DNA of 64,000 nt, taken from NCBI RefSeq assembly GCF_003298505.1, contig NZ_QNGB01000019.1:1-64000 (forward strand), written 5' to 3'. Under the pieces are notes generated by a model. It was not told the DNA's origin. It did no database searches and saw only the letters and a list, made by a program, of their open reading frames with translations. A program made the position numbers and the translations under genes. Source of the stretch: Roseovarius sp. TE539 (GTDB taxonomy: Bacteria > Pseudomonadota > Alphaproteobacteria > Rhodobacterales > Rhodobacteraceae). Shown one piece after another: positions 5,921-31,594 of the stretch. Every line of letters begins with the position of its first letter. Position 1 is the stretch's first letter.

Positions 5921-6310
5921 TTCAAGCCCTTTCTTGCGTCAGTGGTGGCCAATTCCCTTTACCCGCGGGGCGCCGCCGATCTGGAAACCGCCGAAAATAA
6001 CCCGATCACCGAACAATCACAAATGGTGAGTCTGCATACCCGCTTTTGCAACCTGTCATGGCAACCCATCACTCATTGATGCGTTTCGGTTTCCAGGCGA
6101 GTCCTGCCGAAGCGCCTGAACGCTTGGACATTTACCTAGAGGGAGGACAACCATGACAAGAATGCAGTCTGCTCCAAATGCACAATAACGATAACACATT
6201 TACACAAATTTAGACAATCCCGCCAAACTCCTGCCGATACCGCCAACTAGACCGATCGCCACGGGGCCAATCAGGTCTTCACATGCAACCTCAATCGCAG
6301 GAGATGGAGA
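5921..6310. other. Intergenic region between response regulator and peroxiredoxin
   Basis: This 390-base region separates divergently read genes and must hold both promoters. The only coding signal is a short ORF at 6153-6188 (listed separately). Positions 6189-6225 are AT-rich compared with the surroundings. I see no convincing hairpin with a U-tract and no clear operator palindrome. Confidence 0.4.
6153..6188 (+). CDS. Possible 11-codon leader peptide
   Basis: ATG at 6153 follows a very good ribosome site (GAGGGAGGACAACC) and opens an 11-codon frame, MTRMQSAPNAQ, ending in TAA at 6186. It stands 122 bases before the peroxiredoxin gene on the same strand. The strength of the site for so short a frame suggests a leader ORF, or a degenerated gene start. 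No run of a regulatory codon is present, so an attenuation role is not supported. Confidence 0.25.
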   Translation: MTRMQSAPNAQ

Positions 6311-7075
6311 ATGACGATACAGTTCTTTTCGCCCCGTGGTCCGGGGAACGAGATACTCAAGCTCCCCCGCGCTTATCGTCGAAGCGTCAAGTGGCTGCCG
6401 CAGATCGGCGACATCGTTCCCGACTTCACCGTCGCCACGACGCAGGGCGAACTGGGGTTCTGGGAATGGGCCTCGGGAAGCTGGGTTCATCTGTTCAGCC
6501 ATCCGGCGGCTTTCACGCCTGTCTGCACGACCGAGGTCGCATCGCTGGCTTCCTATGATGCCGCCTGGGAAGCAAACAATGTCAAGGTGCTTGGCCTGAC
6601 CGGCTCGACGGTGCCGGAACTGAAGGCCTGGCACCAGGAAATCGAGGAATTCTTCGATACCCGGGTAACGTTTCCGACCGCGCACGATCCCGGGCTGCAA
6701 TTGTCACGGCTCTTCGGGATGATGCACGAGAAAGAGTCGCAGGATTGGGCCATCCGCAAGAGCTTCGTCATAGACCCCGCGCTGCGCCTGCAGATGATCT
6801 TCGAATATCCGATCTTCGTGGGCCGCAACACCGAAGAGATCCTGCGCGTGATACAGGCGCTGCAACTGCGCGCCAAGACCGGCGCCGCCACACCTTCGGA
6901 CTGGTACAGCGGCGATGTCGCGATCATACCGGACGATGTTTCCGAAGAAGAGGTTTGGGCGCATTTCGGCACCACCTCGACGCAACTCAGGAAATACCTC
7001 CGGGTTGCTCTGCCCCGGGCTCGCGGCCAGAACCCGCTTAGTCCGGTGCGCTACGCGCTTGATGCGCCCGATTAA
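6311..7075 (+). CDS. 1-Cys peroxiredoxin (Prx6-like)
   Basis: A 254-residue thiol peroxidase of the AhpC/TSA-Prx6 group that reduces hydrogen peroxide and alkyl peroxides. The catalytic motif is PAAFTPVCTTE with Cys72 as peroxidatic residue; I see no second Cys, so it belongs to the 1-Cys type and needs an external thiol. The C-terminal extension beyond the thioredoxin fold (DVAIIPDDVSEEE onward) is typical of Prx6-like proteins. The start is preceded by GGAGATGGAGA. It is a single gene; no redox regulator is adjacent apart from the divergent response regulator, whose link is unknown. Confidence 0.85.
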   Translation: MTIQFFSPRGPGNEILKLPRAYRRSVKWLPQIGDIVPDFTVATTQGELGFWEWASGSWVHLFSHPAAFTPVCTTEVASLASYDAAWEANNVKVLGLTGSTVPELKAWHQEIEEFFDTRVTFPTAHDPGLQLSRLFGMMHEKESQDWAIRKSFVIDPALRLQMIFEYPIFVGRNTEEILRVIQALQLRAKTGAATPSDWYSGDVAIIPDDVSEEEVWAHFGTTSTQLRKYLRVALPRARGQNPLSPVRYALDAPD

Positions 7076-7704
7076 CCGCCGCCCTGCGGATAGGAAATGA
7101 CCGACAGATACCGGATCGGAAGGCTGATCAATTCCTCGGGGCCATGTGCCGCATCCGCATCAAAGAACAGGCTGTCGCCCGGGCGCAGATGGAAACTCCG
7201 GTCCCCGTGCCGGTATCCGACCTCTCCTTCGAGAATATACAGAAGCTCGATCCCCGGGTGCTGGAACGTCGGAAAAATGTCGGACGCCTCGTTGAGGGTG
7301 ATCAGATAGGGCTCCACGACCACGCCGCTGGTATTGGCCCCAAGATGCCCAAGAAGATTGTACTGATGCCCAGCCCGAGTTCCCGCGCGCTCGATCTCTA
7401 CCGCCTCGCCCGCGCGCATGTGCACTGCTTCTCGGCGCTCCTCGAATCGTCGGAAAAAGGCGGTCAGAGGCATATCCAGAGCCTCGGAAAGAGCCTGCAG
7501 CGTGGTCAGGGACGGAGATGTGACACCGTTCTCGATCTTTGACAGCATGCCCACCGACAACCCGGCCGCCGCGGCCAGATCGGCCACCGTATGCCCGCGC
7601 CGATGCCGGCAATCGCGAACCTCGCGGCCGATCGCCGTTTCCAGGTTCTTTTCCTTGCGTTCGCGTGTCCCGTGCGGGTCCTGACGCAGCGGCGGTTCCT
7701 TCAT
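7072..7704 (-). CDS. XRE-family transcriptional regulator with C-terminal cupin
   Basis: A 210-residue regulator. An N-terminal helix-turn-helix (about 25-85; TVADLAAAAGLSVGMLSKIENG) is followed by a cupin (about 125-205; HPGIELLYILEGEVGYRHGD, LRPGDSLFFDADAAHGPE). This PuuR-like architecture usually senses a small metabolite through the cupin and represses nearby catabolic genes. It is transcribed divergently from the zinc alcohol dehydrogenase at 7913, its most likely target. Its last codons overlap the end of the peroxiredoxin gene by four bases, tail to tail. Confidence 0.85.
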   Translation of the reverse strand: MKEPPLRQDPHGTRERKEKNLETAIGREVRDCRHRRGHTVADLAAAAGLSVGMLSKIENGVTSPSLTTLQALSEALDMPLTAFFRRFEERREAVHMRAGEAVEIERAGTRAGHQYNLLGHLGANTSGVVVEPYLITLNEASDIFPTFQHPGIELLYILEGEVGYRHGDRSFHLRPGDSLFFDADAAHGPEELISLPIRYLSVISYPQGGG

Positions 7705-7912
7705 TGTGCGATCCTCCTGCCGGGTGGCCCCGCAGCATAGCCACCCCCGGTCGTCCTGTCATGCCCGTTCCCGGGGCACGATCACGACGGCAAGGATTGC
7801 CACCACAAACGACATGCCGCGGCAATTTACGACGTTTGACTGTCGCATCCACGCTATTGCGCCGTCCGGCTGCAGGGTATGCAGCAGCGAAACACCATTT
7901 GCAGGCTTGTAC

Positions 7913-8965
7913 ATGAAGGCCGCCCTGATAACCGAATTCGATGGGTCCGTCGATCTGGAAGTGGTCGCGGATCCCACCTGCCCGCGCGACGGCGCCGTCA
8001 TCGCGATACGTGCCTGCGGCGTTTGCCGTTCCGATCACCACGCCTGGAAAGGGGCCGATCCCGATGTCGTGCTCCCGCACGTGATGGGCCATGAATTCGC
8101 CGGCGAAGTCCTGGAAACCGGGCCTGAATGCCACCGGTTCCGCATCGGGGACCGCGTGACCGCGCCATTCATCCTCGGATGCGGCAGTTGCCCGGATTGC
8201 CGCGGCGGTGATCCGACGATCTGCGATCACCAGCAGGTGATCGGCTTCACCGGCTGGGGTGCTTTCGCGGAACGTCTGGCGGTACAGCATGCCGATTTCA
8301 ACCTTGTCCGCCTGCCCGAAACCGTCGATTTCGTATCCGCGGCAGGCATGGGATGCCGGGTGACGACCGCGTTCCGCGCCGTGGTGGACCGGGGCACACT
8401 GGCTCCGGGCGAGTGGCTGGCCGTGCACGGCTGTGGCGGCGTGGGCCTTTCGGCGGTGATGATCGGGGCGGCGATTGGGGCACGGGTTCTTGCCGTGGAC
8501 ATCAACCCGCAGGCGCTTGCGATGGCCCGTGACCTGGGTGCGACCGAAACCATTGATGCCGCCGCGGCAGCACCGGATGTGGGCGACGCCGTGCGTGACG
8601 CCACCGATGGCGGTGCGCATGTCTCGGTTGAGGCCCTGGGCTTGACCGAAACTTTCGGAAACTCGCTGCGCGGTCTGCGCAAACTGGGCCGGCATGTCCA
8701 GATCGGAATGCCTGTGGGTGCCCACGCCACGCCGTCCCTGCCCCTGCTGGAACTGGTCTACGCCCGCCAGATCAGCCTCGTGGGGTCGCGCGGGATCGGC
8801 GCGGCGCGATTCTCGGCGCTGTTCGACATGGTTGCGGCCGGACGGCTGGATCCCGGCGCCCTGGTGACCGCGCGTATCCCGCTCAGCGGCGCGGGTGAGG
8901 CCCTGCGCGCGATGGACGAATTCCGTGGCCATGGCGTCACCGTGATCGACAGGATGGACGCATGA
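7913..8965 (+). CDS. Zinc-dependent alcohol dehydrogenase (MDR family)
   Basis: A 350-residue NAD(P)-dependent medium-chain dehydrogenase. Catalytic zinc ligands are in CGVCRSDHH (Cys38, His43) and GHE (His60, Glu61); structural zinc Cys are at 90, 93, 96 and 104; the nucleotide-binding HGCGGVGLSAV starts a Rossmann fold near residue 172. The oxidised alcohol or polyol cannot be read from sequence. The longer upstream frame from 7706 lacks family similarity, so the ATG at 7913 is used; its ribosome site (GCAGG) is weak. The divergent XRE-cupin regulator at 7072-7704 probably controls it. Confidence 0.85.
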   Translation: MKAALITEFDGSVDLEVVADPTCPRDGAVIAIRACGVCRSDHHAWKGADPDVVLPHVMGHEFAGEVLETGPECHRFRIGDRVTAPFILGCGSCPDCRGGDPTICDHQQVIGFTGWGAFAERLAVQHADFNLVRLPETVDFVSAAGMGCRVTTAFRAVVDRGTLAPGEWLAVHGCGGVGLSAVMIGAAIGARVLAVDINPQALAMARDLGATETIDAAAAAPDVGDAVRDATDGGAHVSVEALGLTETFGNSLRGLRKLGRHVQIGMPVGAHATPSLPLLELVYARQISLVGSRGIGAARFSALFDMVAAGRLDPGALVTARIPLSGAGEALRAMDEFRGHGVTVIDRMDA

Positions 8966-9088
8966 TATTGCCGCGTTTTTACCGGATTTAGACCAGACGC
9001 ACGCCCGTTTCCACTGCAACACTGCCGGGATAACTCAAGCGCCGGTCAGGCGCGGCCTGACCCGCTTCGATAACAAAGGAGCAGTCCA

Positions 9089-9241
9089 ATGGCATCCGCC
9101 GCCACCAGTCAAGACCACACGGAGCCCGCCAAGCCCGAAAGGCCCGCCCCCGCCCCCACGCCGGGGACGACACCCGCCACACCCGCGCCGGCTGCGCGGA
9201 CGATCTCGAGGCAGGTGTTCAACGACTTCGCGTCGATCTGA
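9089..9241 (+). CDS. Small Pro/Ala-rich hypothetical protein (50 aa)
   Basis: A 50-residue ORF with an excellent AAGGAG ribosome site 8 bases before ATG. The first two thirds are low complexity, rich in Pro, Ala and Thr (PERPAPAPTPGTTPATPAPA); the end, ARTISRQVFNDFASI, looks like an amphipathic helix. There is no signal peptide or membrane segment. I do not recognise a family. The ribosome site and the change from low complexity to a helical tail argue for real translation. Confidence 0.5.
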   Translation: MASAATSQDHTEPAKPERPAPAPTPGTTPATPAPAARTISRQVFNDFASI

Positions 9242-9350
9242 GCCTCGGGCGGCAGCGCCCCGCGCGGCCAAGCACACGATGATCAGGCAGGCCAAAAGCC
9301 AGTGACGGCAAAGCGCCTCGACCTTTCCGGCTCGACAGGAACCGGACCGG

Positions 9351-9380
9351 AAAGAAAAGGACCGCCCCGCCGGGACGGCC
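9351..9380 (-). terminator. Intrinsic terminator after ndk
   Basis: On the minus strand, 26 bases after the ndk stop, a GC-rich stem (9359-9380; nine pairs with one bulged T and a GGC loop) is followed by TTTTCTTT (9351-9358). Confidence 0.7.
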
Positions 9381-9405
9381 CATGCGCGGTGCCATCGGCG
9401 ACGGA

Positions 9406-9828
9406 TCAGCCGACCAGTTCGAGCCCCGAGAAGAAGTAGGCGATCTCGGCGGCAGCGGTTTCAGGCGCATCGGACCCGTGAACCGAGTTCTCGCCCACCG
9501 ATTCCGCGAATTCGGCCCGGATCGTGCCCGGCGCGGCATCAGCCGGGTTGGTGGCGCCCATCACTTCGCGGTTCTTGGCGATGGCGCTCTCGCCCTCGAG
9601 AACCTGCACGACAACCGGCGCCGAGGCCATGAATTCGCACAGTTCGCCGTAGAAGGGGCGTTCCTTGTGAACCGCGTAGAAGACACCGGCCTGCGCCGGG
9701 GTCAGCTGGATACGCTTCTGCGCGATGATGCGCAGGCCGGCCTCCTCGAACTTGGCGTTGATCTTGCCGGTCAGGTTGCGGTTGGTGGCATCGGGTTTGA
9801 TGATGCTCAGGGTGCGCTCAATCGCCAT
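9406..9828 (-). CDS. ndk: Nucleoside diphosphate kinase
   Basis: A 140-residue enzyme, the usual length, transferring the gamma-phosphate between NTPs and NDPs. The catalytic motif SVHGSDAPE carries the phospho-histidine at His117; the N-terminus [13 protein letters not shown] and the [13 protein letters not shown] segment are typical. It is transcribed alone on the minus strand, divergent from the ABC-F gene, and ends in an intrinsic terminator at 9351-9380. Confidence 0.97.
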
Positions 9829-10001
9829 TATCAGCCTCTTTTCCGTTCGGGTTCCGCGGGCCGGCCCCCTGCCCGCCCTCCTTGGATCGCGGCTCCGATA
9901 GCATGGGGCGAACGGGTTGAAAAGCCGCATCTTGACACCGCCGGCGCCCCCGGCCCCTTGCCCGATTGACAGCCCCGGCCACCTGCGCCACACCCGCGCC
10001 C

Positions 10002-11855
10002 ATGCTACGCATCGAAGACATCTCCTACTCGGTCGCCGGCCGGCCGCTTCTCGAACACGGTTCGGCCACCATACCGGATGGTCACAAGGTGGGAATCGTC
10101 GGGCGCAACGGGACCGGCAAGACGACGCTCTTCCGCCTGATCCGTGGCGAACTGGCGCTCGAGTCGGGCCGGATCATCCTGCCGCCACGGGCTCGGATCG
10201 GCGGCGTCGCGCAGGAGGTGCCCGGCAACGAGGTGTCGTTGATCGACACTGTGCTGGCGGCCGACACCGAGCGGGCGGCGCTTCTGGACGAGGCCGAAAC
10301 CGCCACGGAAGGCACCCGCATCGCCGAGGTGCAGACCAGGCTGGCGGATATAGACGCGTGGGGCGCGCCGGCCCGTGCCGCGTCCATCCTCAAGGGGCTG
10401 GGCTTTACCGACGCCGAGCAGGCGCAGCCATGCTCGGCCTTCTCGGGCGGCTGGCGGATGCGGGTGGCGCTTGCGGCGGTGCTCTTTGCACAGCCGGATC
10501 TGCTGTTGCTGGACGAGCCCACCAACTACCTCGATCTGGAGGGCGCGCTGTGGCTGGAAAGCTATCTTGCCCGCTACCCCCACACGGTGCTGATCATCAG
10601 CCATGACCGCGGGCTCCTGAACCGCGCCGTTGGCCATATACTGCATCTGGAGGACCGCAAGCTGTCGCTTTACAACGGCCCCTACGACACGTTCGCCACA
10701 ACCCGGGCGGCCCGGGTGGCCGCCGCCGAATCCGAGGCCAAGAAACAGGAGGCGCGCCGCGCGCATCTGCAATCCTACGTCGACAGGTTCCGCTACAAGG
10801 CCGACAAGGCCCGTCAGGCGCAGGCCCGGATCAAGGCCCTGGCGCGCATGCAGCCGATCACCCGCCCGCAGGAGGCCGCATTGCGTGCCTTTTCGTTTCC
10901 GGAACCAGAGGAACTTTCGCCGCCCATCGTCCGGTTGGAAAACACGGCGGTGGGGTATGATGGCAAGGCCGTGCTGTCCCGTCTGGATCTGCGTATCGAC
11001 CAGGATGACCGGATCGCGCTTCTGGGGCGCAATGGTGAAGGCAAATCGACCCTGTCCAAGCTGCTGTCCGGCCGGCTGGACCCGATGGACGGGCGCATTC
11101 ACGCCGCCTCCAAGCTGCGCGTGGGCTATTTCGCGCAACACCAGGTCGAGGAGTTGCGGCCCGCCGAGACGCCCATCGACCATATCCGCCGCCTGCGCCC
11201 GGGTGAGGCGCCGGCGAAACTGCGTGCGCGGCTTGGCGGGTTCGGCATCGGGGCGGAACAGGCGGATACGACCGTCGGGCGCCTTTCGGGCGGTCAGAAG
11301 GCCAGGCTCAGCCTGATGATCGCGACGATCGACGCGCCGCACATGCTGATCCTCGACGAACCGACCAACCACCTCGACATCGAGAGCCGCGAGGCGCTGG
11401 TCGAGGCGCTGACCGCCTATACTGGTGCGGTGATCCTCGTCAGCCACGACATGCACCTTCTCAGCCTGGTGGCCGATCGGCTCTGGCTGGTCAAGGACGG
11501 CCGGGTTGCGCCTTATGACGGCGATCTGGAAAGCTATCGCGCGTTGCTGTTGAGCGCCGACAAGCCCGCCGCCCCGTCGAAATCGCGCAAACCCGCCAAG
11601 CCGGCGCGCCCCGCGCGCGACGCGCTGCAGGCCCTGCGCCAGGACGTGCGCAAATGCGAGCAACGGGTCGAAAAACTGAACGAGATGCGCGACCGGCTGG
11701 CGACCAAGCTCGGTGATCCCGCCCTTTACGATCCCGACCGCGCCGACGAGGCCCAGGTCTGGCAACGCAAATATGCCGAGGTGATGGAGGGGCTCGAACG
11801 CGCCGAGGCCCTGTGGATGAAGGCACTCGAGAAACTCGAAAACGCTGAAGGCTGA
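10002..11855 (+). CDS. ABC-F family ATP-binding protein (Uup/YheS-like)
   Basis: A 617-residue soluble protein with two ABC ATPase domains and no membrane segments. Walker A motifs are GRNGTGKTT and GRNGEGKST; signatures are FSGGWRMR and LSGGQKAR; both Walker B regions read [11 protein letters not shown] / [11 protein letters not shown]. The linker between the domains is rich in Lys/Arg, and the C-terminus (after about residue 525) has a charged coiled coil as in Uup. Family members act on ribosomes or DNA rather than in transport. ATG at 10002 ([11 protein letters not shown]) is the natural start; the extra 12 codons upstream look non-coding. Confidence 0.9.
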
Positions 11856-12153
11856 GGGCTGCCCGCCTTGGGCCGGCGCTACAGCGCGTCGGCCGCGTGG
11901 ATGCTTTCCCGCGGGGCCATGGCCCGCGCGGAGCCGTCATGAGAAAATCAAACGGTGCACCCAAGCCGGAACCCACAACACCGCGGCCTCGGCAAAACGG
12001 GCGGCATGGGATCGTGCCGTATCCCGATCCGGCCGGCGTTCCGGCTCAAGGGTATGGAATTCGCCGAGTCCCGGCATGCCGCACCTTCTGCGGCGCTTGC
12101 ACATCACCCGGTCGCGTCCTAGGCATGCCTTCAGCATACACGAGAAACCCGCC

Positions 12154-12780
12154 ATGGACCCCGCCTTTCTGATCACCGCCTTCGTCACGCTTTTCGTGAT
12201 CATCGATCCGATCGGCATGACACCGCTTTTCGTGGCGCTGACTCAGGGCATGACAGCGCACCGCCGCCGCGCCATCGCATTCAGGGCCTGCATCACGTCG
12301 GTCCTGATCCTGACGCTCTTTGCCGCCTTCGGCGAGGCGGTGCTGGGCTTCGTCGGCATCTCCATGCCCGCCTTCCGCATCGCCGGGGGCATTCTTCTGT
12401 TTCTCACCGCGCTCGACATGCTCTTCGAGCGCCGCACCAAGCGCCGCCAGACCCGCGTGGAGGAAGAGGAGGAGGACGACAGCGACGATCCCTCGATCTT
12501 TCCGCTGGCCATCCCGCTCATTGCCGGTCCGGGCTCGATCGCCTCGGTGATACTGCTCACCGGGCAGCAGCCGGGCCTTGCGGGGCTGGCCTGGGTGGTG
12601 GGCGTCATGGTGGTGGTGATCGCGCTGGTGCTGATCCTTTTCCTCGCCGCCGGGCTTCTGGAACGCGCTCTGGGGCGGACCGGCATCATCGTGGTCACGC
12701 GGCTTCTGGGAATGCTGCTGGCGGCGCTGGCGGTGCAGTTCGTGCTTGACGGGCTGCGCGGCTTCGGGATCGCGGCCTGA
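12154..12780 (+). CDS. MarC family integral membrane protein
   Basis: A 208-residue protein with about six hydrophobic segments, starting with AFLITAFVTLFVIIDPIGMTPLFVALT, the characteristic MarC/UPF0056 N-terminus. An acidic stretch EEEEEDDSDD near residues 107-118 sits in the central cytoplasmic or periplasmic loop. NCBI-type annotations often call these NAAT transporters or multiple-antibiotic-resistance proteins, but no function is well proven. ATG at 12154 is chosen because it begins the hydrophobic segment; the upstream frame is not protein-like. The 298 bases before it hold nothing I recognise. Confidence 0.9.
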   Translation: MDPAFLITAFVTLFVIIDPIGMTPLFVALTQGMTAHRRRAIAFRACITSVLILTLFAAFGEAVLGFVGISMPAFRIAGGILLFLTALDMLFERRTKRRQTRVEEEEEDDSDDPSIFPLAIPLIAGPGSIASVILLTGQQPGLAGLAWVVGVMVVVIALVLILFLAAGLLERALGRTGIIVVTRLLGMLLAALAVQFVLDGLRGFGIAA

Positions 12781-12856
12781 GCTTTCGGACAGCGGCCTTT
12801 CACTGCGCAGCCAACACGCCTATATCCCTTTTCATGGCCCCTGGGAAATACCGCAA

Positions 12857-13438
12857 ATGACCGATTTCGATACCGCACACCTTGTCTACCTTGTCATGCT
12901 CGGCTGCGCGGTGGTGTTCTGGTTCATGGCCTCCAATCGTGAAAGCATGGGCCGTGTCGCACAGCAAGCCGTTGTCTGGGGGCTGATATTTCTCGGGGTC
13001 ATCGCCGCAGTCGGCCTGTGGGACGATATCCGGCAGACGGTGCGCCCCGGTCAGGCCGTTTTCTCGGATGGCAATCGTATCGAGCTGCCGCGCGCACCGG
13101 ACGGTCACTACTACCTTACCGCTCAGGTGAACGGGACACCGGTGGACTTCGTCATCGACACCGGCGCCACGCAGATCGTTCTGACGCAAGACGATGCCCG
13201 GGCCGCGGGCATCGACCCGGACAGGCTGGCTTTCGTCGGCCGCGCCTATACCGCCAACGGGGAGGTGCGCACCGCCCCCGTGCGCCTCGAGAGTATCACG
13301 ATCGGCCCGATCCGCGACACCGGCGTGCGCGCAGTGGTCAACGAGGGCGAGCTCGAGCAATCGCTTCTGGGCATGACCTACCTGCAACGCTTTTCAAGCG
13401 TCGAAATCGCCAATGGACAACTGGTGCTCACGCGGTGA
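12857..13438 (+). CDS. Membrane-anchored retropepsin-like aspartic protease (TIGR02281 type)
   Basis: A 193-residue protein with two N-terminal membrane segments (about 8-25 and 38-54), then a single retropepsin-like domain. The active-site motif is VIDTGATQIVL with Asp101-Thr-Gly; the C-terminal LGMTYLQRFSSVEIANGQLVL matches clan AA proteases of about 120 residues, which act as dimers. The substrate is not known for this family. The start at 12857 immediately precedes the first membrane segment; the longer frame from 12746 would overlap the marC gene. Confidence 0.85.
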   Translation: MTDFDTAHLVYLVMLGCAVVFWFMASNRESMGRVAQQAVVWGLIFLGVIAAVGLWDDIRQTVRPGQAVFSDGNRIELPRAPDGHYYLTAQVNGTPVDFVIDTGATQIVLTQDDARAAGIDPDRLAFVGRAYTANGEVRTAPVRLESITIGPIRDTGVRAVVNEGELEQSLLGMTYLQRFSSVEIANGQLVLTR

Positions 13439-13781
13439 TGCGTTTCGGGATTGGTTCGAGACATATCCGGCAGCCTTGAATCCGATCCGGCGCGCGGCGG
13501 AATCACACAGATCACAGATTTCGGCAATGGTGTTGAATACCAACGTGAGAGAGCGTGCGCCGATCCGTCCGAGGTGTTGAACCCGGGGCAGATTTCCTTC
13601 TTCCATCCGATATATCTGGCCGGTGCCGGGTTCTGGCCGGGAGATTCCCGGTGTGGCCGCTTTCACATTCTTATTTCTGAATACCTTTGACTCAAATCAA
13701 TGTGGATCCTCCCCGAGGCGCATAGCGTGATGCATAAGCTGACTTCTGGAATCACATTTCACTCTTCAAAGGAGACCCAAG
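13439..13781. other. Intergenic region before the DsrE-like gene
   Basis: A 343-base region. Frames on both strands (13451-13690 plus; 13394-13666 minus) are open but show no family features, no good ribosome sites and mixed codon use. The right part carries the FNR-type box at 13687-13700 and the ribosome site of the next gene. Confidence 0.4.
13687..13700 (+). promoter_or_regulatory. FNR/FnrL-type operator
   Basis: TTGACTCAAATCAA is a complete match to the TTGAY-N4-ATCAA consensus of the oxygen-sensing FNR/Anr/FnrL regulators. Its centre lies 88 bases before the DsrE-like ATG. A CATAGC/-10-like hexamer about 28 bases downstream would allow class II activation with a start site near 13735. 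Confidence 0.65.
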
Positions 13782-14219
13782 ATGCGAAAGACCTTCACCG
13801 CCGCGATGATCGCGCTCGCCGCGATGGCGCAGACCCCCGCCACCGCCCAGGAAGCGCCCGATCTCGTTACCATTCTGACCAGCGAAGACCCGCAAACACA
13901 GTTGATGAGCATGGTCCTCACGATGCAGTCTCTCAAGCAGGGTTCGACCACTTACACGCTGCTCTGCGGACCCGGCGGGGATCTGGCGCTTCGCGATGCG
14001 CCCGCCGCCGCCACCGGCCCGCAGAAGCCCAAGGGCATGAGTCCGCAGGGCCTGATGAAGATGATCATGGATCAGGGCGGCACCGTGGAGGTCTGCGCGA
14101 TCTATCTTCCCAACAAGGGTGTCGGAATGGATGCGCTGCTCGACGGGGTGGGCTCGGCCAAGCCGCCGGCGATGGCGGCCCGGCTTCTGGCGGACGACAC
14201 GCGCATCATGTCCTTCTGA
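13782..14219 (+). CDS. Exported DsrE-like protein
   Basis: A 145-residue protein with a Sec signal peptide (about 1-22, ending ATAQ). The mature part resembles the DsrE/DsrF/TusD fold used in sulfur relay: LLCGPGGDLAL, then SPQGLMKMIMDQGGTVEVCAIYLPNKG with a Cys (105) where DsrE proteins keep their conserved Cys, and an end in LLADDTRIMSF. A second Cys (62) could pair with it in the periplasm. Export and the two Cys suggest a periplasmic thiol or persulfide role, which is inference. AAGGAG lies 8 bases before ATG. An FNR-type box upstream points to low-oxygen induction. Confidence 0.7.
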   Translation: MRKTFTAAMIALAAMAQTPATAQEAPDLVTILTSEDPQTQLMSMVLTMQSLKQGSTTYTLLCGPGGDLALRDAPAAATGPQKPKGMSPQGLMKMIMDQGGTVEVCAIYLPNKGVGMDALLDGVGSAKPPAMAARLLADDTRIMSF

Positions 14220-14433
14220 ACAGCGACCGGCAGGTGGCTTCGCCACGCGCGGGGCCCGCCTGTCCGTACACGCCGAACCGCCGCGGTGTTTCGCGAGGGC
14301 AGCCCGACACTTGATGGCGCCCCATTGGTGCGGCGGGTCAACGCACCCGCCCGCCTGTGACGCACACCCGGGATCATGTTCCAAGGGCGCTTGCCCCGTG
14401 GCACCGGCAGGGTATTGCCTGCAGGCGTCTTTT

Positions 14434-14892
14434 TCAGCTTTCGGCTTTTTTCTCCCATTTTCCCGATGCCTCGGACCAATACTGCGCCGCGCATCCGGCC
14501 CGGGTCAGCGCCTTCCACTGACTCCGCGCGGCCTGCACGGCCGTCTGGTCATTGCCGTCAAACAGAACGCATGCCCGATCAAGCGCCATCACCTCCTCGG
14601 GCGCCATGACGGCGCCATCCACGGTCATCAGACAGTTCGCTCCGTTGGGCATTTCCACTGCGGTGGTCAGCAGCACCGGCTGATCCGCCTCGTGCTGACG
14701 CCCGGCAAGACCATGCGGAAGAAATGTATCCTCCGCACCTTGCCACAGCTTCGCGTCAAGCCATTCCATCCTGTCCGGATCCGTCCCGCGAACGGCCACG
14801 CGCCATCCCGCCTGAAGAGCCTTTTCCAGCAACAGCGGCAGCGTCTCTTCCAGCGGTCGCCTGGTCAGGTGATAGAAATAGGCCGCGCCCAT
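14434..14892 (-). CDS. holC: DNA polymerase III subunit chi
   Basis: A 152-residue protein of the HolC family, which links the clamp loader to single-strand binding protein in replication. The N-terminus MGAAYFYHLTRRPLEETLPLLLEKALQAG, WLDAKLWQ and FLPHGLAG are diagnostic for the alphaproteobacterial form. It follows pepA by four bases on the minus strand, the usual pepA-holC order. A C-terminal Lys/Glu-rich tail ends the protein. Confidence 0.9.
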   Translation of the reverse strand: MGAAYFYHLTRRPLEETLPLLLEKALQAGWRVAVRGTDPDRMEWLDAKLWQGAEDTFLPHGLAGRQHEADQPVLLTTAVEMPNGANCLMTVDGAVMAPEEVMALDRACVLFDGNDQTAVQAARSQWKALTRAGCAAQYWSEASGKWEKKAES

Positions 14893-14896
14893 GGAC

Positions 14897-16369
14897 TCAA
14901 GACGTCTCGAACTGCTCGCTCACCAGACGGTTGAGCGCCATAACGCCCCAGCCGGTGGCCCCCTTGGGAGCATGGGCCGTGTCCGATTTCACGCTCGCCA
15001 CGCCAGCGATGTCGAGATGAATCCAGGGCATGTCCCGCTTGACGAACCGCGCCAGGAATTGCGCCGCCGTGATCGAGCCGGCAGGCCGCCCGCCGACATT
15101 CTTCATATCCGCGATACGGCTCTTGAGCATCTCGTCATAAGCCTCCCCGAGGGGCATCCTCCAGGCGCCTTCACCTTCCGCTTCGGCCGCCTTCAGGAAA
15201 GTGCCGCAGAACTTGTCATCGTTGGAGAAAACACCGGCTTTCTCGTGGCCGAGGCCGATTATGATCGCGCCGGTCAGCGTTGCCAAGTCGACCAACGCGG
15301 CCGGCTTGCAGACCTCCTGAGCGTACCACATCACGTCGGCCAGGACCAGCCGCCCCTCCGCGTCGGTGTTGATGACCTCAACCGTCTCACCTTTCATCGA
15401 GGTGATCACGTCCCCGGGACGCGTGGCGCGCTCCGAGGGCATGTTCTCGACCAGACCGACAAGCCCCACGACATTGGCAGCCGCCTTGCGCCGGGCCAAC
15501 GCGTGCATCACGCCCGTGACGACACCCGCCCCGCCCATGTCCATGGTCATGTCCTCCATGCCGGCAGCCGGTTTCAGGCTGATTCCGCCGGTATCGAAGA
15601 CGACACCCTTGCCGACCAATGCCAGCGGCGCGGCGTCCTTCGTGCCCCCACGCCAATGCATCACAGCGACCTTCGAGGGGCTTTCGCTGCCATGCCCGAC
15701 CGCCAGCAGCGCGCCCATGCCAAGTTCGCGCAGGCGCGCCTCTTCCAGGATTTCCACCTCCACGCCCAGATCGCGCAGGCCCTCGATCCGTGTGGCGAAC
15801 TCGGTGGTGGTCAGGTGGTTGGCGGGTTCATTGACCAGATCACGGGTCAGGAAAACACCTTCGGCCACCGCCGCGGCGGGACCATAGGCGGCCTCCGCGG
15901 CATCGCTGTCGGCCACCATCATCCGGACCTCGCCAGCATCCTTGTCCCCGGCCGTCTTGCGCGCCGTGAAATCGTAGGCCCGCAAAGACAGGCCAAGGGC
16001 CAGCTCCTCGGGCCGGCGCACCTGCCCGGCCAGGACCAGAAAGCTCTTGTGATCCTTGAGCTTTCCCAGGGCCGAGCCCGCCTTGCGCAGAAGGTCCGGC
16101 TTTGCGGTGCGTGGCAGGCAGACAATGTCAAGGGCTTCCGCGGCCATGCCGGTGGGCCACGAAAGGCTGATCACGTCGCCGGGTTTGGCATCCTCCATGA
16201 CGCCGGCTTCTATCATCCGCTTGAGAGCCCCCTTCGTGAGACGATTGGCCCGCCGTGCCCCGGCATCCATGCGGCCATCGGGCGTGACAACGACAGCCAC
16301 GCGTCCCTTGGCCGTTGCGATCTCCTCAAGGTCGGTGTCGTGGAATGTGACGGGGACGGGTTTGCTCAT
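14897..16369 (-). CDS. pepA: Leucyl aminopeptidase (M17)
   Basis: A 490-residue cytosolic zinc/manganese aminopeptidase that removes N-terminal residues from peptides. The family signature NTDAEGRLVLAD, GKGVVFDTGG and the GGAGVVTGVMHALA region supply the two-metal site. It is co-transcribed with holC and divergent from lptF, an arrangement conserved in many proteobacteria; the 164 bases between pepA and lptF must hold both promoters. Confidence 0.95.
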   Translation of the reverse strand: MSKPVPVTFHDTDLEEIATAKGRVAVVVTPDGRMDAGARRANRLTKGALKRMIEAGVMEDAKPGDVISLSWPTGMAAEALDIVCLPRTAKPDLLRKAGSALGKLKDHKSFLVLAGQVRRPEELALGLSLRAYDFTARKTAGDKDAGEVRMMVADSDAAEAAYGPAAAVAEGVFLTRDLVNEPANHLTTTEFATRIEGLRDLGVEVEILEEARLRELGMGALLAVGHGSESPSKVAVMHWRGGTKDAAPLALVGKGVVFDTGGISLKPAAGMEDMTMDMGGAGVVTGVMHALARRKAAANVVGLVGLVENMPSERATRPGDVITSMKGETVEVINTDAEGRLVLADVMWYAQEVCKPAALVDLATLTGAIIIGLGHEKAGVFSNDDKFCGTFLKAAEAEGEGAWRMPLGEAYDEMLKSRIADMKNVGGRPAGSITAAQFLARFVKRDMPWIHLDIAGVASVKSDTAHAPKGATGWGVMALNRLVSEQFETS

Positions 16370-16533
16370 GGGATCGCTCCTGTTGTTCGCCTTTGGTAGA
16401 GGGCGTTGCCCCTTGGTCCGGCCGGACCGTGCCCGAAGTCCTAGCGCGGTGCCGCCGAGTTGACCAGATAGCAGTTTTCCCGGCGGCGCAATTGGGATAC
16501 CCTCATCAAAAAGACGGGTACGGGGGATATTGA

Positions 16534-17679
16534 TTGAGCAGATTCGACAGATACATGCTGTCGCAATTCATGATCCTGTTCGGCTTCTTCGCGCTGATCC
16601 TCGTGGCGATATTCTGGATCAACAAGGCGGTGCGGATGTTCGATCACCTGATCAGCGACGGACAGTCGGCGTGGGTCTTTCTGGAATTCACCGCGCTGAC
16701 CCTGCCGGCGGTGATCGCGGTGGTGCTTCCCATCGCGGCCTTCGCGGCAGCCGTCTATGTCACCAACCGCCTGAGCACCGAGAACGAACTGACCGTCATG
16801 CAGGCCACCGGCTATTCGCATTGGCGGATGGCCCGGCCGGCGGCGATCTTCGGCCTGATCGTTGCGCTGATGATGTCGATCCTCACGCATGTCCTGGTTC
16901 CGGCGAGTGCCGAAAAGCTGCGCCTGCGCGAGGCCGAGGTTGCCCGCAATCTGACCGCCAAACTGCTCACCGTGGGGGAGTTCCTGCACCCGGCATCCGG
17001 CGTGACCTTCTATATCCGCAGCGTGACGCCCGAGGGCGAGCTGCAGAATGTGTTCCTGTCGGACCGCCGCGACCCGGAAAACCCGATTGTCTACACCTCG
17101 CCCCGTGCCTATCTGGTGCCCCAGGACGGGGGGACCAAACTGGTCATGGTCTCGGGGTTGGCGCAGTATCTGCGCGGCGACGGCGACCGGCTGTTCACCA
17201 CTCATTACGATGACTTCTCCTATGACATCAGCAGCCTGATACCCGAAGGTGTGGCCAATCTGGACAAGGTGGAATTCGTTCCCACCGCCACGCTGCTCGC
17301 TGCCCCGGAGGCGGTGGCCGAACGCACCGGGGCCACACTCGGGCAGGTGGTTTTCGAAACCCACAGCCGAATCTCGGAAGCGGTCATCTGCGTGGCGGCC
17401 GCGCTGATCGGTTTCGCCGCGCTCCTCCTCGGCACGTTCAGCCGTTTCGGGGTGTGGTGGCAAATCGTTACCGCCTTCCTGCTGCTGGTGGCGATCAAGC
17501 TGGGCGAAGGGATGGTATCGGGGCCGGTGCTGGCCAATCCCGCCCTATGGCCGCTGATGTACCTTCCCGGGTTGGTCGGGCTGGCGACAGTGGCGGTACT
17601 GCTTTTCTTTGGATCGCGCGCGCTGGCACTCCGCCGGATTCTCGTTCTGGGCCGGTCTGCCCGGGGAGATCCGGCATGA
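16534..17679 (+). CDS. lptF: LPS export ABC transporter permease LptF
   Basis: A 381-residue YjgP/YjgQ-family permease that, with LptG and the LptB ATPase, extracts lipopolysaccharide from the inner membrane. Membrane segments lie at about 10-35, 50-75 and 95-115, a large periplasmic beta-jellyroll follows, and three more segments end the protein. The start is read as TTG at 16534 after GGGGGA, since FDRYMLSQFMILF needs it for a full first segment. Its stop overlaps the lptG start (ATGA). Confidence 0.93.
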   Translation: MSRFDRYMLSQFMILFGFFALILVAIFWINKAVRMFDHLISDGQSAWVFLEFTALTLPAVIAVVLPIAAFAAAVYVTNRLSTENELTVMQATGYSHWRMARPAAIFGLIVALMMSILTHVLVPASAEKLRLREAEVARNLTAKLLTVGEFLHPASGVTFYIRSVTPEGELQNVFLSDRRDPENPIVYTSPRAYLVPQDGGTKLVMVSGLAQYLRGDGDRLFTTHYDDFSYDISSLIPEGVANLDKVEFVPTATLLAAPEAVAERTGATLGQVVFETHSRISEAVICVAAALIGFAALLLGTFSRFGVWWQIVTAFLLLVAIKLGEGMVSGPVLANPALWPLMYLPGLVGLATVAVLLFFGSRALALRRILVLGRSARGDPA

Positions 17680-26839: not shown

Positions 26840-27853
26840 TCAGCTGAACATCGCATCCAGGTCGGTGGTGCCGTTCTTGTTGAGGTCATCCTTGTGGGCG
26901 TCGATGAAGGCATCGGCCCGGGCGCGTCCGGCCTCCTTCAGCCGCCCGAGGACATGAGGCGTCGGCATCAGCTTGGTGGCTACGGACAGTTCCCGCATCA
27001 AAACGTCATCGGCGATCATGTGCACCAGGACCCGTTTCATGCGGCCTTCAGGCAACTGCCCTTCGCAAAGAAGGCGTTGCACGAAGGCGATTGCGCGCAG
27101 CTCGCGAAGAAGCGAGGAATTGAAACTTATCTCGTTGATACGGTTCTGGATCTCCTGCGGGCTGCGCGGCACCTCGGTACGTTCGAGGGGGTTGATGTTG
27201 ACCACCACGATATCGGCGGGCAAGTCATGGCTGAACAACGGGAAAAGCGCCGGGTTGCCGGTGTAGCCGCCATCCCAGTAATGCGCGCCGTCGATCTCCA
27301 CAGCCTGAAAAAGCGTTGGCAGGCAGGCCGAGGCCAAAAGGCTCCGGGTGCTGATCTCGTGGCCCGTGAAGACGCGGATCTTGCCGGTGTGAACATTGGT
27401 TGCACCGACGAACAAGCGTGGCCCCGCGGTGGCGCAGACCGTATCGTAATCGAATTCATCGGCAATGCCGGTCAGCGGGTTGCGATAAAACGGACCGTAC
27501 GCATAAGGCGACACCATGCGCGAGACGGCATCCGCCATGTTGTAATGCAGGGAATGTTCCAGGGCCGAGGAAATCGCGCCGGGCATCAGCGGCCCTGCCA
27601 TCCAGGCCGGCATGCGCATGTCCCCCACGGCACCCAGCCGTCCCCATAACCAATCGAGGTTTTCGCGCGCCCCATCGCGCCCCCCCTTGAGCCAGCCGGA
27701 TTTGAACGCCGCACCGTTGAGCGCCCCTGCCGAAGTGCCCGAGATCCCGGCAACCTCAATGTCCGGCTCGTCCAGCAAACGATCGAGCACCCCCCAGGTG
27801 AAGGCCCCGTGCGCGCCGCCGCCCTGAAGGGCCAGATTGATGCGGATCGTCAT
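26840..27853 (-). CDS. Patatin-like phospholipase
   Basis: A 337-residue serine hydrolase. The oxyanion loop GGGAHGAF (11-18), the nucleophile in GTSAG (Ser41) and the catalytic Asp in YWDGGYTGN are all present. It lies downstream of 3-hydroxybutyrate dehydrogenase, and the pair is common in alphaproteobacteria that store polyhydroxybutyrate. A role in hydrolysing PHB oligomers or granule lipids is plausible but unproven. Confidence 0.9.
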   Translation of the reverse strand: MTIRINLALQGGGAHGAFTWGVLDRLLDEPDIEVAGISGTSAGALNGAAFKSGWLKGGRDGARENLDWLWGRLGAVGDMRMPAWMAGPLMPGAISSALEHSLHYNMADAVSRMVSPYAYGPFYRNPLTGIADEFDYDTVCATAGPRLFVGATNVHTGKIRVFTGHEISTRSLLASACLPTLFQAVEIDGAHYWDGGYTGNPALFPLFSHDLPADIVVVNINPLERTEVPRSPQEIQNRINEISFNSSLLRELRAIAFVQRLLCEGQLPEGRMKRVLVHMIADDVLMRELSVATKLMPTPHVLGRLKEAGRARADAFIDAHKDDLNKNGTTDLDAMFS

Positions 27854-27934
27854 TTTCGTTCATCTCCCCGGCTCCGCGCATGAAGCCGGTCCGAGGCTTT
27901 GCCCACGCCGAACGTCATCGCGAAGCGCCAAGAC

Positions 27935-28708
27935 CTAGAGAGCGGTCCATCCGCCATCGACACTGATCGTCGTGCCGGTGATCTGCGCCGCCGCGTCAGA
28001 GCACAGGAAGACGGTCGTGCCGCCAAGTTGCTCGACCGTCGCGAACTCCTTGGAGGGTTGCCGCTTGAGCATCACGTCCCGGATCACGTCTTCGCGGGAC
28101 ATGTCGTATTCCTTCATCGTGTCCGGAATCTGCGCCTCGACCAGAGGTGTCAGCACGTAGCCCGGACAGATCGCATTGGCAGTGATCGGCTCCTCGGCGG
28201 TTTCCAGCGCCGTGGTCTTGGTGAATCCAACGATACCGTGCTTGGCCGCGACATAGGCGGATTTGAAAGGCGAGGCCGTCAGGCCGTGCGCGCTGGCGAT
28301 ATTGACGACCCGGCCCCAGCCGCGTTCGCGCATCACCGGCAACGCCGCGGCAGTGGTGTGGAACGCGGAGCTGAGATTGATCGCAATGATCGCATCCCAT
28401 TTTTCGGTCGGAAATTCGGATATCGGCGCGACGTGTTGAATACCGGCATTGTTCACGAGGATATCGCACCCGCCCGCCGTGTCGATCAAAGCCCGGCAGT
28501 CCTCCGCTCTGGACATGTCGGCCCTGATGTAGCGGGCCTCGACGCCGTGTTCGCGGCCGATTTCCGCGGCAAGCGCATGATCCTCTTTCGAATCGGTGAA
28601 GGAGTTGAGGACGACATTCGCACCGGCCCGGGCCAGTTCGCGCGCCACCCCGAGCCCGATGCCCGAGTTCGATCCGGTAATGATCGCGGTCTTGCCTGAA
28701 ACACTCAT
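27935..28708 (-). CDS. bdhA: 3-hydroxybutyrate dehydrogenase
   Basis: A 257-residue short-chain dehydrogenase oxidising (R)-3-hydroxybutyrate to acetoacetate with NAD, in ketone-body and PHB breakdown. The NAD loop is TGSNSGIG (11-18), the catalytic triad Ser139, Tyr152 and Lys156. NNAGIQHVAPI, FPTEKWDAIIAINLSSAFH and the C-terminal VDGGWTAL are characteristic of BdhA. It is first in a two-gene unit with the patatin gene. A small RNA or attenuated leader ends 79 bases before its start. Confidence 0.93.
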   Translation of the reverse strand: MSVSGKTAIITGSNSGIGLGVARELARAGANVVLNSFTDSKEDHALAAEIGREHGVEARYIRADMSRAEDCRALIDTAGGCDILVNNAGIQHVAPISEFPTEKWDAIIAINLSSAFHTTAAALPVMRERGWGRVVNIASAHGLTASPFKSAYVAAKHGIVGFTKTTALETAEEPITANAICPGYVLTPLVEAQIPDTMKEYDMSREDVIRDVMLKRQPSKEFATVEQLGGTTVFLCSDAAAQITGTTISVDGGWTAL

Positions 28709-28786
28709 GTCACCATCCCCTTATTTCGCGGTTGCAGCATATATGCGGCACATGCGAATGCAACGGGCGCCGGGGCGGGGGTGGAC

Positions 28787-28816
28787 AAAAAAAGACGCCG
28801 GTACAAGACCGGCGTC
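28787..28816 (-). terminator. Intrinsic terminator
   Basis: On the minus strand GACGCCGGT-CTTGT-ACCGGCGTC (28794-28816) forms a perfect 9-bp stem with a 5-base loop, followed by seven T (28787-28793). It points left and has no annotated minus-strand gene upstream of it, which is why a small RNA is proposed. Confidence 0.85.
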
Positions 28817-28863
28817 CAGTTATTGAGGCAGGTTTCATACAGGCAAGAAACCTATCGAGCAGT
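28787..28863 (-). ncRNA. Candidate small RNA (about 77 nt) or attenuated leader upstream of bdhA
   Basis: On the minus strand a sigma70-like promoter (28870-28898) predicts a start near 28863. The transcript would hold a hairpin with a perfect 7-bp stem (28830-28836 with 28847-28853; loop UUGCCUGUAU), a short single-stranded C/U-rich stretch, and a perfect 9-bp terminator hairpin with seven U (28787-28816). No ORF with a ribosome site lies within it. It points toward bdhA and ends 79 bases before that gene, so it could be a free sRNA or a conditional terminator. Hfq is encoded in the same window, but no target is evident. Confidence 0.6.
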
Positions 28864-28869
28864 GACTTC

Positions 28870-28898
28870 TTTATAAGCAATCCGGCGCCGTCATCCAA
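28870..28898 (-). promoter_or_regulatory. Sigma70-like promoter of the candidate small RNA
   Basis: On the minus strand TTGGAT (28893-28898) and TATAAA (28870-28875) are separated by exactly 17 bases. The distance to the terminator gives a transcript of about 77 nt. Confidence 0.55.
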
Positions 28899-28977
28899 GC
28901 TAAAAGTTTGAAAAGCCATGAATCCGTCTCTACGCTCCGGGTCAATGAAACAAGGGATGCCGGGGATTGTTGCGCGA

Positions 28978-30807
28978 ATGACACCAGTTTTTTTCCACGG
29001 AACCATCCGCGCCATGGCCTTTTTTGTATCGGTTTTGTGGGCTCAGACGGCACTGGCGAACCCCGAGCATGGCATAGCTATGTACGGGGATCCGGCCCTC
29101 CCACCGGATTTTGTGTCTCTGCCCTATGCCAACCCGCAGGCGCCGAAGGGCGGCAAGGTGGTGACCGGCAATGTCGGCGGTTTTGATTCGCTCAACCCGT
29201 TCATCCTCAAGGGCAGCCCGCCCTGGCAACTGCGATTTCTCGCATACGAGTCGCTTCTTGGGCGTTCCTGGGACGAGCCGTTCTCCCTTTACGGGCTTCT
29301 GGCCGAATCGGTAGAGACTCCGCCGGGGCGCGAATGGGTGGAATTCACCCTGCGTCCCGAGGCCCGATTCTCCGATGGCAGCCCGGTCACCGTGGAGGAT
29401 GTGATATGGTCCTACCGCACCGTCGGCACCAGGGGCCATCCGCGATACCGAAGCCTCTGGGACAAGATCGAGGTGATAGAACCCACCGGCCCGCGGAGCC
29501 TGCGCATCACGTTCAACGAAAAGGACAGGGAACTGGCCCTGCTGGCCGGGATGCGCCCGATCCTCAAGAAAGCGCAGTGGGAAGACCGCGATTTCGCCGA
29601 GGGGCGCCTCGCGGATATTCCGATTGGAACGGCGCCCTATGTCGTGGACAGCTACGAGGTGGACCGGAACGTGGTCCTGACCCGTAATCCGGACTACTGG
29701 GGCAAGGAACTTCCCCTGCGCCGCGGCACCAACAATTTCGACGAGATCCGCATCGAGTTCTACGGCGACAACGCAGTGATGAAAGAGGCGTTCAAGGCCG
29801 GCGCGATCAGTTACATGCGTGAATTCAACGCCGAGAAATGGGAGCGCGACTACGATTTCCCGGCAATCCGCCGCGGCGAGATCGTCAAATCCGAGATCCC
29901 GCACAGCAAACCGTCCGGGATAACGGGGTTCGTCATGAACACCCGCCGCCCGCCGCTGGATGACTGGCGGGTACGCGATGCACTGATCCATGCCTTCAAT
30001 TTCGAATACATCAACGACACCCTGACCGGCGGGCGGCAGCCGCGCATCACGTCGTACTTCTCGAATTCCGAACTGGGTATGCGCCCCGGACCGGCCACCG
30101 GCCGGGTGCGCGACCTCCTGATGCCCTACAAGGACGAGCTGCTGCCCGGCGCACTCGAGGGGTACACGCTTCCCGAAAGCGACGGCACCAAGCGAAACCG
30201 GGGCAACCTCCGCAAGGCCCTGCGGCTTCTGGAAAGGGCCGGCTGGGCGGTGCGCGATGGCAAGCTGCGCGACGCCGAGGGCACGGCGCTGGAACTGACC
30301 GTGCTCTTGCGCCAGGATGCCCTGATCCAGCAGGCCAGCGCGATGATGGACATATATGCACGGGCGCTGGAAAGGCTGGGCATCACCCTCGACATCCAGA
30401 GCATCGACAAGGCCCAGTACAACGAGCGCGAGCGCCAGTATGATTTCGATCTCACCTTCATGCGCCGGTCTCTGTCGCTGAGCCCCGGCAACGAGCAATA
30501 TTACTACTGGGGATCTTCCGGGGTGGACACGCCCGGCAGCCGCAACCTCATGGGAATGGACTCGGCCGCGGCCGAAGCGATGATCGAGGAAATGCTCACC
30601 GCGCGCACCCGCGAGAACTTCGTGATGGCGACCCGCGCGCTTGACAGGGTGCTGACCACCGGCCGCTACGTGATACCCGTTCATCAGTACGCCGTGGGGC
30701 GCATCGCCCATCAGGCGGCGTTGCAATATCCCAAGGACAATCTGCCCATCTACGGCGACGGTATTGGATTTTTGCCCGAAGTGTGGTGGTATGAGCCGCA
30801 GGACTGA
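28978..30807 (+). CDS. Family 5 extracellular solute-binding protein (oligopeptide/YejA-like)
   Basis: A periplasmic binding protein of about 609 residues for peptides or related solutes in ABC uptake. A signal peptide (about 1-27, ending QTALA-NPEHG) precedes the SBP_bac_5 fold (PYANPQAPKGGKVVTGNVGGFDSLNP... LRPEARFSDGSPVTVEDVIWSY). YGDPALPPDF and the overall length fit YejA-type proteins. The ATG at 28978 gives a normal signal peptide; starts at 28918 or 28945 are possible and only lengthen it. No permease or ATPase genes are adjacent, so it must work with a transporter encoded elsewhere. Confidence 0.88.
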   Translation: MTPVFFHGTIRAMAFFVSVLWAQTALANPEHGIAMYGDPALPPDFVSLPYANPQAPKGGKVVTGNVGGFDSLNPFILKGSPPWQLRFLAYESLLGRSWDEPFSLYGLLAESVETPPGREWVEFTLRPEARFSDGSPVTVEDVIWSYRTVGTRGHPRYRSLWDKIEVIEPTGPRSLRITFNEKDRELALLAGMRPILKKAQWEDRDFAEGRLADIPIGTAPYVVDSYEVDRNVVLTRNPDYWGKELPLRRGTNNFDEIRIEFYGDNAVMKEAFKAGAISYMREFNAEKWERDYDFPAIRRGEIVKSEIPHSKPSGITGFVMNTRRPPLDDWRVRDALIHAFNFEYINDTLTGGRQPRITSYFSNSELGMRPGPATGRVRDLLMPYKDELLPGALEGYTLPESDGTKRNRGNLRKALRLLERAGWAVRDGKLRDAEGTALELTVLLRQDALIQQASAMMDIYARALERLGITLDIQSIDKAQYNERERQYDFDLTFMRRSLSLSPGNEQYYYWGSSGVDTPGSRNLMGMDSAAAEAMIEEMLTARTRENFVMATRALDRVLTTGRYVIPVHQYAVGRIAHQAALQYPKDNLPIYGDGIGFLPEVWWYEPQD

Positions 30808-30849
30808 GCGGTCTCACCAACAAAGAAACGAGCAGACAAGGCAGAAACA

Positions 30850-30963
30850 ATGAAAACGCTGATCGCAGTGATGCTTCTGGGCATTCTGGGTGGCTGTGCA
30901 ACGGTCGATGGTATCGGGCGCGATATTTCGGGGGCGGCGCGCGGCGTCCAGACCTGGTTCTGA
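30850..30963 (+). CDS. Entericidin-like small lipoprotein (37 aa)
   Basis: A 37-residue ORF starting 42 bases after the solute-binding protein. The signal sequence ends in a lipobox LGGC with Cys16 as lipidation site, and the mature part is only 22 residues (CATVDGIGRDISGAARGVQTWF). Length and the CATV.GIGRDIS.A pattern match the entericidin EcnA/EcnB family of envelope lipoproteins, whose role in stress or lysis is uncertain. It is too short for most gene callers. Probably co-transcribed with the upstream gene. Confidence 0.8.
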   Translation: MKTLIAVMLLGILGGCATVDGIGRDISGAARGVQTWF

Positions 30964-30970
30964 ACACGTG

Positions 30971-31594
30971 TCAGTCGAGTGACGTGACCCACAGGATCGT
31001 GGCGTCCTCCTCGCTGAGTGAAATCACGTTGTGGCCCATCGTGGCATCGTAATACGCGCTGTCCCCGCGCCGCATCTCGACCGGTTCGTAGAATTCTGTG
31101 TAAAGCCGGATCACCCCGGTCAGGACATAGAGGAACTCCTCTCCGTCGTGGCGCACCCAGCCATCGAATTCCTCGAAGTGCCGGGCACGGACCCGTGCAC
31201 TGTAGGGCAGCATGCGTTTCTTGGTCAGGCTTTCGGCCAGAAGACGGTGCTCGTAGGTCGCGGTGGCGTGATGCGCGCCCTCGCCGGCGCGGGTCATCGC
31301 CATGCGACCGTTGATCTGGTCGCGCTGCGGCGGGGTGAAAAGCTGCGGCACGGATATCTTCAGCCCTTCGGCGAGCTTCCTGAGCGCCTCGTAGGTCGGT
31401 GACATCTGGCCGTTCTCGATTTTCGACAGGGTCGAGCGCGCCAGCCCCGCCTGTTGCGCAGCCTGTTCAAGGGTCCAGCCATGCGCCTTTCGCAAGCCGC
31501 GCACCCGCGTACCGAGATCCAGCGGCTCCCCGGTTTCTTCGTGGCCATTGTCGCGCGATATGCGGATCAGATGTCGGGGATCGCTCTGGTTCAT
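30971..31594 (-). CDS. XRE-family transcriptional regulator with cupin domain
   Basis: A 207-residue regulator with a helix-turn-helix at about 27-82 (LGTRVRGLRKAHGWTLEQAAQQAGLARSTLSKIENG) and a C-terminal cupin (about 125-205; HDGEEFLYVLTGVIRLYTEFYEPVEMRRGDSAYYDA). It is divergent from the AMP-forming ligase at 31661 with only 66 bases between the starts, so it likely regulates that operon. It is a different subgroup from the regulator at 7072. The ATG at 31594 follows ACGGGGTC. Confidence 0.88.
   Translation of the reverse strand: MNQSDPRHLIRISRDNGHEETGEPLDLGTRVRGLRKAHGWTLEQAAQQAGLARSTLSKIENGQMSPTYEALRKLAEGLKISVPQLFTPPQRDQINGRMAMTRAGEGAHHATATYEHRLLAESLTKKRMLPYSARVRARHFEEFDGWVRHDGEEFLYVLTGVIRLYTEFYEPVEMRRGDSAYYDATMGHNVISLSEEDATILWVTSLD

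Follow-up and report, generated by a model that had tools for sequence, protein, structure and literature searches.

A conserved small RNA gene upstream of bdhA in Roseovarius sp. TE539, a probable StsR ortholog with predicted complementarity to the dcw leader

Overall, we believe that the minus strand of the 64,000-nt stretch of Roseovarius sp. TE539 DNA analysed here (the window) carries, at 28787..28865, a small RNA gene that is very probably an ortholog of StsR, with a stress promoter of its own and a role in trans on the 5' leader of the division and cell-wall (dcw) operon. This identity rests on the match in target, promoter type and size, and not on alignment. The initial annotation had proposed an unannotated trans-acting sRNA at this site, a proposal now supported by a gene conserved throughout the family Rhodobacteraceae and by a conserved partner in the dcw/mraZ leader; that conservation marks the predicted RNA as the product of a genuine gene and not of chance.

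The architecture originally described for the locus is present in every detail. Exactly 17 bases separate TTGGAT (28898-28893) from TATAAA (28875-28870) on the minus strand, the stem AGGTTTC/GAAACCT encloses the loop TTGCCTGTAT, and the perfect 9-bp terminator stem GACGCCGGT/ACCGGCGTC is followed by seven T that end at 28787, with the bdhA ATG (28708) 79 bases beyond. The predicted transcript is about 77-79 nt, its start being approximate, and the covariance model of the RNA scores 107.1 bits at 28788-28865. Within it lie a 40-nt core, ACTGCTCGATAGGTTTCTTGCCTGTATGAAACCTGCCTCA (28824..28863), stem 1 with its 10-nt loop (28829..28854; arms 28854-28847 and 28836-28829, from the fold and alignments), and the intrinsic terminator hairpin with its T7 run (28787..28817). 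The fold of the 80-nt RNA has z = -4.05, with none of 200 shuffles equally stable, and of the six terminator-like sites in 27000-31000, where shuffles average 3.7 sites, its terminator is the one with the most pairs. No Rfam family reaches its gathering threshold anywhere in the whole 64,000-nt window.

Conservation extends across the family. In a DNA search covering 60 genomes, the sRNA was present in 35 of 36 from the same genus; in G017 it is divided between two contigs, and the sole same-genus genome without it, G033, is 72% complete. Four Paracoccus replicons carrying the sRNA came from a distant blastn search of PLSDB. The covariance-model check across Rhodobacteraceae that had been suggested for this locus matched 290 of 295 family genomes (289 of 294 genera). 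One of these matches, in G225 (23.6 bits), is confined to the terminator plus a few letters at the 5' end and lacks the core, and its removal leaves the RNA conserved in 289 of 295 genomes. When the model search was repeated on the 34 cases with a weak match or none, 28 matched, G225 included, and no sRNA appeared in the five unmatched family genomes, whose assemblies are 73 to 92% complete and comprise 70 to 520 contigs. In a class sample, 46 of 289 genomes were matched; only four, all from the same family, exceeded 100 bits, and the 42 from other families reached at most 33.8 bits. For 12 of the outside-family loci, the ten alignments listed owe their agreement chiefly to the terminator, and none of the 26 loci L067-L092 contains the 13-mer GGTTTCTTGCCTG. 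On these grounds we reject homologs outside the family. A second weak model match in the window's own genome (G000 C23:165085-165165, 23.5 bits) is probably terminator similarity only.

Every column of the core is invariant in 21 sequences, 19 from the same genus and two from Paracoccus, and core variants are rare and found in distant genera. Both stems had been put forward for tracing in relatives, with a divided outcome. The terminator shows compensatory change, with five of ten pairs altered on both sides in the 21-sequence alignment and nine of ten compensated among 61 loci aligned by fitting to the covariance model, whereas stem 1, paired in 99.1% of cells at those loci, is near-invariant and therefore supplies no covariation evidence. 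The 61-locus sample is non-random, being composed of the best and worst model scorers, and includes a Paracoccus record that possibly repeats a genus.

The same loci bear on whether the RNA belongs to its neighbour. The initial annotation had alternatively suggested a conditional terminator controlling bdhA and hence PHB metabolism, which would make the element an attenuator within the bdhA 5' leader. The 3-hydroxybutyrate dehydrogenase gene bdhA (27935..28708, minus strand; TIGR01963, 371.7 bits, cut-off 307.05), which lies outside the sRNA unit, does share the strand of the sRNA, and in 42 of 61 loci its start falls 110-465 nt past the GGTTTC arm. In those 42 the gene for a divergent ABC transporter substrate-binding protein lies on the other side (28918..30807, plus strand, start codon uncertain; family models place it near nickel/peptide binding proteins, with every score below the respective cut-off). 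A further 15 loci have the divergent gene only, four have neither and none has bdhA alone, so that the transporter gene, present in 57 of 61, is the more constant neighbour. A position directly upstream of the regulated gene, as an attenuator calls for, thus holds in 42 loci only, and the sRNA is kept without an adjoining bdhA in the other 19, as seen in a view of some 1.5 kb on each side, less at contig ends (921 bases downstream in L117); bdhA may sit farther out where it was unseen. It is also the core that is invariant, while the terminator drifts freely. We therefore reject the attenuator on synteny and regard it as very improbable. Neither neighbouring mRNA stands up as a target of a trans-acting RNA: predicted pairing with the bdhA start (-30.1 kcal/mol) is ordinary, being equalled by 24% of 300 random window stretches, and pairing with the transporter mRNA is poor (-17.4 kcal/mol). 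The proposed control of PHB metabolism accordingly gives way to a conserved partner elsewhere in the genome, the dcw/mraZ leader. Between the sRNA end and bdhA, at 28733-28770 of the window, there is also a TGCA-rich stretch, ttgcagcatatatgcggcacatgcgaatgcaa, partly common to relatives, which we take to be possibly a PhaR-type operator of bdhA.

The sRNA and the dcw leader share a conserved predicted complementarity. A second match of 19-20 nt recurs in the same-genus search results, and its position, compared in five genomes (G004, G007, G016, G027 and G033), is immediately 5' of mraZ. Upstream of mraZ in the window's own genome, CAGGTTTCATGCAGGCA can pair with TGCCTGTATGAAACCTG of the sRNA over 17 bases with one G-U; the complementary segment (28826..28845, minus strand) lies within the core. 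A fuzzy version of the leader site, with up to four errors tolerated, occurs within 900 bases upstream of mraZ in 48 of 56 family genomes (43 of 51 with the window's genus counted once), against 1/56 downstream, 2/56 antisense and 55/1120 mononucleotide shuffles, a background of 4.9% at that setting. The 56 retain one unfair miss, G076, whose leader is cut by the contig start; other loci cut on the leader side shift by about 100 bases. Among 30 genomes searched from other families, 27 had mraZ and one of these had the fuzzy site; their best duplex energies have a median of -22.3 (one control leader reaching -31.2), compared with -31.5 for 28 genomes of the family, among which 25 carry the site. 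Across the 56 family genomes, the duplex energy is better than that of the downstream control in 53 and better than the best of ten shuffled sRNA segments in 51. The complement of GCCTGTA is found in 40 of 50 leaders, where 1.1 would be expected, and the net cofold energy of the sRNA with its own leader is -20.2 kcal/mol. Relative to the Pfam match that served as anchor, the site mostly lies 420-560 bases upstream, a position inside the leader from which, according to PMC5089854, UpsM arises in R. sphaeroides.

Individual genomes add detail to this picture. The sRNA of G161 reads TAGGA where the consensus is TATGA, and the opposing leader reads TCCTA instead of TCATA, one clear compensatory change between the two partners; the variant sRNAs of G118 and G088 have no compensating leader change. 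G118, G088, G298 and G092 form no strong predicted duplex (-19.1 to -22.7 kcal/mol). The fuzzy site is present but no sRNA was found in G033, G092, G192, G225 and G295, genomes 71-90% complete in which a missing contig is a possible cause; G206 and G214 yielded neither the sRNA nor mraZ. A second candidate contact, leader CGAGCAG with CUGCUCG at the 5' end of the sRNA, occurs in 29 of 50 leaders (2.7 expected), and we discount it since it falls mostly within a longer conserved block. A block like GATCCGGCGCGCGGGCGAGCAGACATCCCCCC (L181 1330-1370, the dcw leader of the window's own genome) recurs in many leaders and bears CGAGCAG.

Taken alone, the promoter is no better than chance: it fails the sigma-70 scan, with TTGGAT matching TTGACA at three of six positions. 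We accept it as real because of the comparison with relatives, in which TAT of the -10/-12 element (TATAAA, 28870..28875, minus strand) is found in 54 of 60 loci, and 49 of 60 have TTG of the -35 element (TTGGAT, 28893..28898) together with TAT at a separation of 14-21 bases, against 3.1% of shuffles (L114, with an altered 5' end, was excluded from this count). In R. sphaeroides, PMC10673084 describes RpoHI and RpoHII as recognising TTG at -35 and TAT at -12, and their binding as lost on mutation of TTG and TAT in the rsp_0557 promoter; the TTG/TAT arrangement of the sRNA promoter fits this motif. Just 5' of the -35 element lies TCAAACTTTTAGC (28899..28911, minus strand; columns -47 to -40 conserved at 63-88%), common across the family and different in Paracoccus, which may be a regulator site or an UP-like element.

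A general pathway can be proposed from these elements. A free-standing StsR ortholog would have a dedicated promoter of the RpoHI/RpoHII type, be expressed during stress and stationary phase, and act in trans. Its loop and 3' stem arm (GCCUGUAUGAAACCUG) would open and pair with the leader site CAGGTTTCATRCAGGC, which lies ahead of mraZ within the long dcw 5' leader, in the region that gives UpsM. The duplex would alter the leader fold and so enable cleavage by RNase E, and this cleavage would lower dcw expression and growth. The gene, its conservation, the terminator covariation, the TTG/TAT promoter and the conserved leader complementarity come from the sequences studied here; the sigma factors, Hfq, RNase E and the effect on division are taken from R. 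sphaeroides papers, and we infer by analogy that the copy in Roseovarius sp. TE539 acts in the same way. Parts of the core outside the main dcw pairing, ACUGCUCGAU above all and the 5' ten bases among them, are just as invariant as the pairing segment, which may point to further targets or a protein partner. How far this extends is an evenly balanced question for us: the sRNA and the dcw leader may form a near-immutable circuit throughout the family, one able to co-vary, with additional conserved targets or an undescribed protein partner implied.

An unannotated stretch of DNA gains a likely function. The kind of stress RNA is already known from StsR. Its family-wide conservation together with a dcw site is unstated in the parts of the literature searched, PMC8307010 and PMC11354728 included, though the main StsR paper may state it. 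These results indicate that a stress RNA characterised in a single species belongs to the core genes of the whole family and that its target in the division operon is conserved along with it, and growth arrest by an sRNA becomes testable in many other family members. The covariance model and the target site can also be used for annotation, where no Rfam family reaches threshold here.

Among known RNAs, the MmgR/alpha-r8 family (RF00519) resembles the present one in being short, alphaproteobacterial and built of one weak hairpin plus a terminator, and a distant member of that group (MmgR/suhB/SisA-D) controlling PHB granules might have been suspected, RF00519 being the best sub-threshold Rfam match (18.7 bits, E 0.1). 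The gathering score of RF00519 is 41, however, and RF02356 gives an identical 18.7 bits. PMC12559287 states a single-stranded 10-mer, UUUCCUCCCU, as a trait of the family, and this defining sequence is missing from our sRNA; we reject membership on both counts and consider it extremely unlikely.

Intergenic 134 of Paracoccus denitrificans is another comparable RNA. As described in PMC5107571, it is 84 nt long, confirmed by RT-PCR with 5830-17250 normalised reads, and conserved among many Rhodobacteraceae, a putative R. sphaeroides sRNA sharing its context, with matches also listed outside the family in rhizobia, Streptomyces and Chloroflexus; from its numbering it apparently lies on chromosome 2. 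It resembles the present sRNA in size, in family conservation and in that apparent location, since a contig scan of 57 loci, all from Paracoccus other than P. denitrificans, puts our sRNA on chromosome 2 in P. kondratievae. It differs in its listed matches beyond the family, of which our sRNA has none in the sampled alphaproteobacteria. The two may be the same RNA.

The closest likeness is to StsR, formerly RSs0827, of Rhodobacter sphaeroides. According to PMC8307010, StsR is a 72-nt, RpoHI/RpoHII-dependent and Hfq-bound RNA that binds both UpsM and the 5' UTR of dcw and promotes the cleavage of UpsM by RNase E. Our sRNA belongs to another organism, and the likeness is one of target, promoter type and size. 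The core's letters are absent from the literature texts searched, and the neighbourhood implied by the name RSs0827 found no confirmation: RSP_0829 of R. sphaeroides is lctB, and in the 8 kb around the P. kondratievae sRNA no lactate dehydrogenase was recognised by eye among ORFs of at least 170 aa. These points leave some room for a different trans-acting family sRNA that has the dcw target in common with StsR. We consider that improbable, as it requires two unrelated family-wide sRNAs of similar size, promoter type and target. The abstract of the main StsR paper (NAR 2021) reportedly agrees with the features listed above. Loss of StsR reportedly alters how cells enter stationary phase. The sRNA of Roseovarius sp. 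TE539, for which StsR orthology remains by far the preferred reading, is of the same size class (about 77 nt here, and 75-79 nt in 31 loci when measured from immediately 5' of the core through the last T of the run) and likewise ends in an intrinsic terminator, has a TTG/TAT promoter that by its letters is of the RpoHI/RpoHII type, and is predicted by complementarity to pair with the same UpsM/dcw leader.
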